Below are positions 21,296-23,099 of a DNA stretch of 64,000 nt, one piece after another. Each line of letters opens with the position of its first letter. Within the stretch, counting starts at the first letter, position 1. The notes beneath the pieces were generated by a model. It was not told the DNA's origin. It searched no databases and saw only the letters and a program-made list of their open reading frames with translations. The stretch comes from Arthrobacter sunyaminii (lineage in GTDB: Bacteria > Actinomycetota > Actinomycetes > Actinomycetales > Micrococcaceae), in the NCBI RefSeq assembly GCF_018866305.1, contig NZ_CP076456.1:2542001-2606000 (forward strand). Direction: 5' to 3'. The position numbers were made by a program, and so were the translations under genes.

Positions 21296-21625
21296 GGTGT
21301 CCTCCCGCACCATCGCGGCAGGTCAACGCCTCATCTGGAGTAGGATCGGAGCACAACCCGGGTTTGATGTGCTGCTTTGGCGCGTCCACCCGGTTATGAA
21401 GGGTTAGAAGGACAGGAGGTGAACCGCACGCATGGACGACGGACATAGTCGATCCACCGCGCCGCGCGAGCCTCGCCTTCCAATCCGGGTCCCCTAAGCA
21501 CCTCGACCTGCTCTTTGGGGCGTGAGCTTGTGCGGCAGCGGTATTTCGCATCCCCGCTCATTTTCCCGCACCCGCCGCGGTAATGCCGCTGCCTTTAGGT
21601 GTGCCCCACCGGAGGAACCCGGACC
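21296..21625 (+). promoter_or_regulatory. Long 5' leader of mgtE containing a short ORF
   Basis: These 330 bases precede the mgtE start. They include a short hairpin (AGCACA at 21351-21356 with TGTGCT at 21368-21373), a complete Shine-Dalgarno sequence AGGAGGTGA at 21414-21422 serving a 21-codon ORF, and the mgtE ribosome-binding site GGAGGA at 21611-21616. ACCCGG occurs at 21357, 21388 and 21617, and its complement CCGGGT at 21485 inside the ORF, which permits alternative pairings. I do not see the conserved core of the M-box magnesium riboswitch. Control of mgtE through this leader is inferred, not shown. Confidence 0.55.
21432..21497 (+). CDS. Putative leader peptide of mgtE (21 residues)
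   Basis: The ATG at 21432 is preceded by AGGAGGTGA, a nine-base match to the 3' end of 16S rRNA, nine bases upstream. The peptide begins MDDGHSRSTAPREP and ends LPIRVP before TAA at 21495-21497. Two acidic residues directly after Met, followed by four prolines and four arginines, resemble the composition of enterobacterial MgtL (acidic and proline codons near the start), where low magnesium makes translating ribosomes unstable. The position in front of a magnesium transporter gene fits the same idea. No homology is claimed; expression is inferred from the ribosome-binding site. Confidence 0.55.
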   Translation: MDDGHSRSTAPREPRLPIRVP

Positions 21626-22984
21626 ATGATTAAGTCCCCCACCCTGACTTTTGATGCACGCGCCGAACTGCTGGCCGACGCCCTGGACAAAAACAGCCTG
21701 CCCGATGTTGCCCGCGCCTTGGACCGGCTGAGCGTGGCAGAGACCATGGAGCAGCTCGAACGGCTGAACAGCATTGACCGGGCGCTGGCCTTCCGCACAC
21801 TGTCCAAGGGGCGGGCCCTGGAGGTCTTCGAGAGACTCGATGCCCTGCTCCAGGCGGACCTCGTGGCGGGGCTGCAGGACGCGCAGGTGGCCGAGGTCTT
21901 TGCCGGGCTGAGCCCCGATGACCGGGTGGCGCTGCTCGATGAGCTGCCCGCGTCAGTGGCGAAGCGCCTGCTGCTGGGACTCAGCGACAAGGACCGTGCA
22001 CTCACGAACACCGTGCTCGGCTACCCGCAGGGTGCAGTGGGCCGCTATATGAGCCCGCAGTTTGTCACGGCCCGCCCCTGGTTCACCGCCGCCCAGACAA
22101 TGGCCCGCGTCCGGGCTCAACTGGATGATGCTGAAAGCATCTACACGATTCCGGTTGTCGACGAGGGCCGTCGCCTGGTGGGTGTGGTCTCCCTGCGGGA
22201 TTTGTTGCGCGCCGCGGAATCAGACCCTGTGGCGAGCCTGATGAAGGACCCGCTGTCCGCCCCCGCCACCCTGGATGCAGAGGAAGCGGCCAGGTACTGC
22301 GCCGACGCGAAAGTCCTGGTGCTCCCGATTGTCGACGCCGAAACCCGGCTTGTGGGAATTCTGACCGTGGACGACGCCCTGGGCATTCTGGAGGACGCTG
22401 AAAGCGAGGATGCGGCCCGGGCCGGCGGCGCCGAACCGCTGCGCCGGCCCTACCTCGCCACCCCCGTGCGCAGTATCGTTCGTGCGCGCGTGGTCTGGCT
22501 GCTGGTGCTGGCATTGGGTGCAACATTGACGGTCCAGGTCATGGGCGCCTTCGAAGCAACTCTGGCCGAGCAGGTGGTGCTGTCGCTCTTCATCCCCCTG
22601 CTGATAGGCACGGGCGGAAACACCGGAAACCAGGCAGCGACCACCATTACCCGCGCCCTGGCGCTGGGTGACGTCCGGCCGAGGGACGTCTTCAAGGTCC
22701 TGGCCCGGGAGCTGCGGGTGGGTGCCTGGCTGGGTATCTTGCTGGGCGGGCTGGGCTTCGTGCTTGCCTCCATCCTGTTCACCGTGCCGCTGGGCCTGGT
22801 GATTGGCCTGACGCTGCTGGGGGTCTGCACCATGGCTGCCGGCGTTGGAGGGCTGATGCCGCTGCTGGGCAAAGCGCTCAAGGTGGATCCGGCAGTGTTT
22901 TCGAATCCTTTTATTTCGACCTTTGTAGATGCAACGGGCTTGATCATCTACTTCCTGATCGCATCCTCGGTTCTGGGGCTCTAG
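21626..22984 (+). CDS. mgtE: Magnesium transporter MgtE
   Basis: A 452-residue MgtE channel that admits Mg2+ and closes when cytoplasmic Mg2+ is high. In order: the superhelical MgtE N domain (about 15-125, with the LSPDDRVALLDELP repeat), a CBS pair (about 130-255) that senses Mg2+, a connecting helix, and five membrane helices (about 285-450). The pore signature GTGGNTGNQAATTITRAL lies in the second membrane helix. I chose the ATG at 21626 after GGAGGA; an upstream GTG at 21599 is in frame. A 330-base leader with a short ORF precedes it, and a 26-base-pair terminator follows. Confidence 0.95.
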   Translation: MIKSPTLTFDARAELLADALDKNSLPDVARALDRLSVAETMEQLERLNSIDRALAFRTLSKGRALEVFERLDALLQADLVAGLQDAQVAEVFAGLSPDDRVALLDELPASVAKRLLLGLSDKDRALTNTVLGYPQGAVGRYMSPQFVTARPWFTAAQTMARVRAQLDDAESIYTIPVVDEGRRLVGVVSLRDLLRAAESDPVASLMKDPLSAPATLDAEEAARYCADAKVLVLPIVDAETRLVGILTVDDALGILEDAESEDAARAGGAEPLRRPYLATPVRSIVRARVVWLLVLALGATLTVQVMGAFEATLAEQVVLSLFIPLLIGTGGNTGNQAATTITRALALGDVRPRDVFKVLARELRVGAWLGILLGGLGFVLASILFTVPLGLVIGLTLLGVCTMAAGVGGLMPLLGKALKVDPAVFSNPFISTFVDATGLIIYFLIASSVLGL

Positions 22985-23026
22985 CCGGCCGGCCGTCCCT
23001 GTCCTCCGCTGGAGTGCCCGTCCCCT

Positions 23027-23085
23027 GTAAAGCCGCGAGGGCCTGGCCACGGATCCGTTCCGTGGTCAGGCCCTCGCGGCTTTAC
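23027..23085. terminator. Bidirectional terminator between mgtE and ndk
   Basis: A 26-base-pair stem, 23027-23052 with 23060-23085, with a single G.T mismatch and a seven-base loop. It starts GTAAAGCCGCGAGGGCCTG and ends with the mirror sequence. It lies between the converging mgtE and ndk genes; U-tracts are weak. Confidence 0.8.
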
Positions 23086-23099
23086 GCTTCTTGAGCGGG

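Follow-up and report, generated by a model that had tools for sequence, protein, structure and literature searches.

A conserved short leader ORF upstream of mgtE in Arthrobacter sunyaminii and related actinobacteria is a candidate translation-sensing attenuator

The window analyzed here, a 64,000-nucleotide stretch of Arthrobacter sunyaminii contig NZ_CP076456.1, contains mgtE preceded by a short open reading frame (Table 1). The mgtE product is a full-length MgtE magnesium transporter (TIGR00400, 351.8 bits versus a cut-off of 232.75), and the gene is the only one of its kind in this genome. A weak protein match elsewhere (G000:C1:3044644-3045330, L002) comprises only MgtE residues 33-255 at 30% identity, outside the channel domain. 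The leader ORF translates to MDDGHSRSTAPREPRLPIRVP, including four proline and four arginine residues, and ends 128 nt before mgtE. As the preliminary description had stated, this 21-codon ORF has a better Shine-Dalgarno (SD) sequence, AGGAGGTGA, than mgtE itself with its shorter GGAGG. Rfam models at gathering score matched only five tRNAs in the whole window, and at E ≤5 the leader region gave CcsR1 (20.7 bits versus 65.3, E 0.0087, 21489-21597) and MIR528 (14.6 versus 62 bits) alone, both far below their cut-offs. In ten relatives searched at E ≤0.1, no match overlapped the leader. The M-box model remained unmatched in the window, the leader region, and the ten relatives, in line with the preliminary description, which had seen no M-box core.

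Table 1. Features of the mgtE leader region, in window coordinates
Feature	Position	Strand	Basis or remark
Putative -10 element TAGGAT	21341..21346	+	predicted transcription start near 21353
Leader Shine-Dalgarno AGGAGGTGA	21416..21424	+	read from sequence; conserved in alignment
Leader ORF, 21 sense codons + TAA	21432..21497	+	ATG at 21432; codons 1-8 conserved
Predicted hairpin P2: UGGACGAC - 7-nt loop - GUCG A UCCA	21433..21456	+	holds part of start codon
Strand A of long-range helix (codons 9-16)	21456..21479	+	duplex and permutation tests; 3' part could also pair with leader SD
Strand B of long-range helix	21516..21543	+	duplex with codons 9-17
C-rich, G-poor, rut-like stretch	21544..21578	+	possible Rho loading site, judged from composition
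mgtE Shine-Dalgarno core GGAGG	21611..21615	+	read from sequence
mgtE, magnesium transporter, gene presumed regulated	21626..22984	+	TIGR00400

Downstream, mgtE converges with a gene that we take, from its ORF, to be ndk. Between the two genes, an inverted repeat (23026-23086) with a 28-bp stem and a five-base loop folds with a z score of -8.1 (none of 200 shuffles as good) and is probably an unusually long bidirectional terminator.

The leader was sought in 29 genomes of the genus with a 40-base pattern (GGAGGTG..AGTCGATC, ≤3 mismatches). One match each was found in 11 genomes, exactly the 11 of 29 that contain mgtE at E ≤1e-100, and the pattern read backward gave no match. A 25-base core (≤2 mismatches) matched 56 of the 395 genomes of a family sample, once each and in 4 of 32 genera, with a single match in the backward control; all 56 stand before mgtE. 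Reading of mgtE upstream regions added three leader genomes (G101, G164, and G218). Thus, the comparison of Micrococcaceae mgtE upstream regions proposed in the preliminary description recovered the leader ORF with its SD in 59/59 genomes with mgtE (E ≤1e-60) from four genera (g1, g23, g24, and g25; 85 genomes), while the remaining 26 genomes contained neither mgtE at this threshold nor, in the pattern search, the leader. The distance from leader to mgtE is 194-351 nt in these genera, and extrapolation gives 180 nt for one genome in which mgtE is matched only in part. A second mgtE copy in G150 of genus g24 (L174) has no leader by the filter used; the first copy has one.

The reading of mgtE upstream regions covered 129 mgtE loci, a subset of the places listed for the family sample. 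An ORF was retained there only if an SD preceded it and residue 2 or 3 was acidic, and a further comparison required acidic or SSD/NSD starts, which biases the apparent acidic conservation beyond the four main genera. Diverged leaders were found in genera g3, g4, g18, g21, and g22; the rest of the family genera, several of them with mgtE, had none by the SD and acidic-residue filter, and one g13 ORF (G250) was judged spurious and dropped from structural counts. For 18 of 19 related loci taken from named genomes, the sequences preceding mgtE were aligned; the titles of 16 of the 18 give Arthrobacter or Paeniglutamicibacter. In 17 of the 18, the flanks diverge around an alignable block of codons 1-8 (in six of the 17 the SD falls outside the 350-nt cut), the eighteenth (L017) has a diverged MDDGPS leader nearer to mgtE, and the nineteenth (L019) has no such leader. 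ORFs of similar build precede mgtE in some genomes from other families of the order (MSSDSHSRRH, MSSDSCSHH, GTG-started MNSDSSRH, MDTGSSSR, and others). Seven of the 26 loci read there were taken as similar leaders, six of which entered the further comparison. The MSSDSHSRRH leader occurs in 3 of 99 genomes of one such genus, each with an mgtE relative (61-62% identity) just downstream, and another genus has its own version in one of four genomes. A covariance model searched over 396 genomes with strict filters, by which weak matches were lost, gave seven matches; six stand before mgtE, and one (G537, outside the family) is false and lies inside an ORF that we presume to be a polyphosphate kinase gene. 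Judged from these comparisons, the observation of a conserved leader ORF before mgtE is confirmed, and the leader is kept in many soil actinobacteria.

Upstream of the leader, the hexamers TAGGAT, TACCAT, or TACGAT, picked after inspection of the sequences, occur 68-115 nt before the leader ORF begins in 28/40 sequences from g1, g23, and g25 (25 of the 28 at 87-100 nt) and are absent from the 12,831 nt that separate leader and mgtE in the 57 sequences concerned. By genus, they are found in 4/11 (g1), 12/14 (g23), 12/15 (g25), and 0/17 (g24) sequences. In the window, such a promoter-like -10 element precedes the leader ORF, in keeping with the position of the ORF in a leader of mgtE, as originally described. 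In 7 of the 11 genus loci (L024-L026 and L028-L031), the leader is instead preceded by tRNA-Ser(GCU), the reader of its conserved AGU codon, with a terminator-like hairpin seen there by eye. Because the conserved block starts at the leader SD in both upstream settings, leader and mgtE look like one unit. A link between this tRNA and the leader was considered and rejected: the tRNA stands upstream at 0 of 33 loci of other genera, several of which hold only about 0.8 kb of upstream sequence, and its best match in this genome is at 397 kb with the leader at 2,563 kb, so the adjacency is treated as local synteny.

Conservation within the leader comprises the SD, the start codon, and codons 1-8, which read M-D/E-D/G-G/S-x-S-R-S with exceptions. 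In 48 aligned sequences, two G of the SD are invariant, and five more positions are conserved to ≥90%. The start codon is ATG, with GTG or TTG in six rows behind a conserved SD. Codon 2 is acidic in 59/59 sequences of the four main genera (GAC 35, GAT 12, GAA 12), and codon 3 is glycine in 6/59, all from g24. Thus, the early acidic codons to which the preliminary description had drawn attention (Met-Asp-Asp) hold fully at position 2 and only in part at position 3. The signal is also confounded with RNA pairing, because the predicted stem pairs TCT with the GGA within ATG-GAC, and since any GAN encodes Asp or Glu, an acidic residue is kept whatever the third base. In codons 6-8 (AGT CGA TCT), third positions are almost fixed despite possible synonymous changes, and CGA is invariant in the 48 sequences.

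After codon 8, the picture changes. Two genus-mates (G007 and G015) carry 1-nt deletions at this point that alter the peptide and keep the downstream GCGCG-rich sequence, which corresponds to strand A. The expected conservation of the frame among close relatives therefore extends to codons 1-8 and is lost beyond them in these two genomes. By this comparison, the Pro/Arg-rich tail, proposed earlier as part of a sensing peptide, is not a conserved peptide but a stretch of RNA helix strand, and the conserved frame ends at codon 8. The ORF varies in length from 17 to 34 codons. Across the four genera, 56/56 sequences place the earliest in-frame stop downstream of the initial 18 nt of strand A but upstream of strand B (56, 56, 56, and 55 of 56 with four query lengths). 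The remaining two frames stop in this interval in 24-37/56 and 4/56 sequences, the figures varying with how the limits of B are set; these counts used 56 of the 59 rows, with duplicates and G121, a partial mgtE match, left out. Conservation thus suggests a short translated ORF before a Mg2+ importer gene, and the leader probably serves as both ORF and RNA.

The pairing of strands A and B was evaluated by duplex energies. In the window, strand B and codons 9-17 form a duplex of -41.9 kcal/mol (none of 100 shuffles as good). Across 73 of 77 rows, own pairing averaged -26.6 kcal/mol versus -25.45 (sd 0.29) for partners permuted within genus, with the tree not modeled, and none of 2000 permutations was as good. 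The z scores of four control stretches were -0.4 (-64..-40), -0.2 (-40..-16), +1.2 (codons 1-8), and +0.9 (codons 17-24, in 72 sequences). The advantage is one of averages: many individual duplexes are no better than shuffles, own partners have no advantage in g25 (14 sequences, -30.0 versus -30.1) or g3 (3 sequences, -22.3 versus -25.8) and a small one in g24 (-19.1 versus -18.3), and the segments of g18 pair better with those of other genera (-26.9) than with their own (-23.7). Within g24, one pair changes from CTGCGAGCTC:GAGTTCGCAG to CTACGAGCTC:GAGTTCGTAG, with the G-U intermediate CTGCGAGCTC:GAGTTCGTAG in G164; the tally of pair types leans toward pairing because pairs were read from the best duplex. 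Strand B, sought only ≥57 nt past the start codon and misplaced in a few sequences (e.g., G177, G137, and four of g24), ends 83-130 nt before mgtE in 37/39 sequences from g1, g23, and g25; in g24, this distance is 109-158 nt for 13/17. In the folded ensemble, just 0.09-0.39 of strand A (group means) is paired with B, as A also pairs near the leader SD. Taken on average across sequences, these data support codons 9-16 as one strand of a long-range helix.

Candidate outputs of this helix were then compared. An intrinsic terminator was rejected, since a consistent U-tract is missing (≥5 T in the 9 nt after strand B, the stretch scanned, in 4/56 sequences). A terminator or antiterminator partner for strand B was likewise dropped: the data did not support a second helix between B and downstream sequence (z 0.0 and -0.3), and other pairings tried alongside gave z scores of -0.5 to +1.6. 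Direct control of the mgtE ribosome-binding site was discarded as well, because blocking A in silico hardly altered the predicted accessibility of the mgtE start (group-mean shifts ≤0.04; 0.49 to 0.37 in the window). The 43 nt that follow strand B average 0.43 C and 0.16 G, with C exceeding G in 38/39 sequences of g1, g23, and g25, and C minus G is ≥0.25 in 30/39, a difference reached by approximately 1.5% of 43-nt stretches on one strand of the window and 1.2% on the other. To a milder degree, C is also in excess upstream of B and over the initial 60 nt of mgtE. By composition, the stretch fits the expectation for a Rho loading site. Between B and mgtE, many relatives from g1, g23, and g25 show, by eye, a CACCACACCCATTTTCTGCACAC-type stretch and, between it and the mgtE SD, a GCACAC/GTGTGC hairpin.

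We propose, with moderate confidence, that the mgtE 5' leader acts as a translation-sensing attenuator that resembles MgtL and MgtQ in logic; this confidence applies to the attenuator and not to the magnesium or Rho steps. A ribosome would initiate the leader ORF at the strong SD and, on completing the ORF, would pass over strand A (codons 9-16) and be released before strand B. Failure or drop-off of the ribosome within codons 1-8 would leave A free to pair with B, and the state of A:B would determine if transcription extends into mgtE, in the simplest case by controlling the access of Rho to the C-rich stretch. Because the ribosome would cross A and leave before B, leader translation is well placed to set A:B formation. 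Comparative support comes from the conserved ORF before mgtE, the A:B helix, and the stop between A and B. That Rho provides the output falls a little short of an even chance in our estimate, and early drop-off at Met-Asp-Asp caused by low magnesium is a more tentative suggestion.

A different explanation for much of the same sequence would be a ligand-binding structured RNA switch, perhaps for Mg2+ itself, in which a hairpin at the start site would mask the AUG and SD of the leader, strand A would alternate between B and the SD, and the ORF would merely be the switched element. Minimum-energy folds are in its favor, with ≥3 SD bases paired with codons 9-19 in 64/76 sequences and ≥2 start-codon bases paired downstream in 64/76, as are the near-fixed third positions of codons 6-8 and the invariant CGA. 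Hairpin P2, however, with 93.5% of cells paired, has 0 compensatory changes in 48 sequences. Apparent covariation in P2 thus failed when changes were counted within the family, and the cross-family support comes from a hand alignment with a few distant lineages (one position C-G, U-G, G-C, and U-A; unpaired in 11/47). The leader fold (z -0.90) hardly beats the upstream control stretch (-0.80), which in g1 includes a terminator-like hairpin; g23, g24, g3, and the other families do beat the control. Pairing of the SD with A exceeds that in shuffles only mildly (mean z -0.83; 71% of 68 sequences do better), so sequestration of the SD by A is not clearly beyond shuffles or control, and an alternative pairing of A with the leader SD is only suggestive. 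As the conserved core is also very short for an aptamer, we consider a ligand-binding switch improbable.

Much the same codons could be read as a classical amino-acid attenuator, at which the ribosome waits at Ser/Arg codons (AGT, CGA, and TCT) when charged tRNA is short. These codons are rare in high-GC genomes, and AGT serine codons recur in the diverged leaders of other families, but the four main genera have no run of one regulatory codon, a consistent U-tract after A:B is absent, mgtE encodes a magnesium transporter and does not belong to a biosynthetic operon, and pairing with ATGGACGAC also explains the Ser/Arg codons. Such attenuation therefore appears very improbable. A conserved small protein that merely happens to be encoded upstream of mgtE would account for the N-terminus with its own SD; yet only approximately eight residues are conserved, the tail varies in sequence, length, and, in two cases, frame, and the matches of pattern and covariance model stand before mgtE bar the one false match, which makes this scarcely credible.

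The attenuator favored here can be set beside known leaders. MgtL, the mgtA leader peptide of Salmonella and E. coli, has early acidic codons (E2 and D4) that destabilize ribosomes at low Mg2+, although two acidic codons alone need not do so (PMC11282234). The leader described here has, like MgtL, a short ORF that stands before a Mg2+ importer gene and begins with acidic codons (D/E2, mostly D3), and possibly also a choice of RNA pairings through which the access of Rho could be set (PMC11282234). It differs in the transporter family (MgtE), the phylum, the lack of an EPDP motif in the leader peptide, and the Pro/Arg stretch, which here forms helix strand A; the likeness is one of logic, and relatedness is not claimed. 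MgtQ, encoded before mgtB in Salmonella, likewise has acidic codons (D2 and E5) that destabilize ribosomes in a short ORF overlapping alternative stem-loops (PMC8092293), but it frees the mgtB ribosome-binding site, in contrast to the nearly unaltered predicted accessibility at mgtE. In Mycobacterium tuberculosis, Rho-dependent leaders with uORFs are documented, and the pe20 M-box is an actinobacterial Mg2+-linked leader with a uORF and Rho-dependent termination (PMC12810186); the mgtE leader has no M-box, and its ORF itself carries the helix strand. The Thioalkalivibrio mgtE motif (riboswitch candidate SRC-65-1) also precedes mgtE, but by its description, on which the comparison is based, it is a structured RNA whose stem P4 contains the mgtE SD, and it is reported in Thioalkalivibrio only (PMC11109978). 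The Corynebacterium ilvB uORF motif is another actinobacterial regulatory uORF found by conservation, with Ile/Leu/Val codons and an intrinsic terminator (PMC11109978), neither of which is seen here (for the terminator, in the 9 nt scanned after strand B). In searches of openly accessible journal literature, no such leader before mgtE was described in actinobacteria.

The leader is probably a control switch for magnesium uptake, and this would explain control of mgtE in bacteria in which no M-box had been found. A further-reaching reading, which we regard as doubtful, is that a leader ORF with which magnesium is read via ribosome stability at early acidic codons arose in actinobacteria separately from that of enterobacteria and controls MgtE, not a P-type importer. 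As the same approximately 60 nt would then serve as ORF, start-site hairpin, and long-range switch strand, Met-Asp-Asp and the RNA stem would be one compromise. The natural series of variants (Asp or Glu at codon 2, Asp or Gly at codon 3, and changing tails) would make the link between acidic codons and drop-off testable in a high-GC Gram-positive bacterium. If magnesium is indeed sensed through ribosome stability, reading of Mg2+ by the translating ribosome would have arisen at least twice and would be a general strategy, not an enterobacterial peculiarity.
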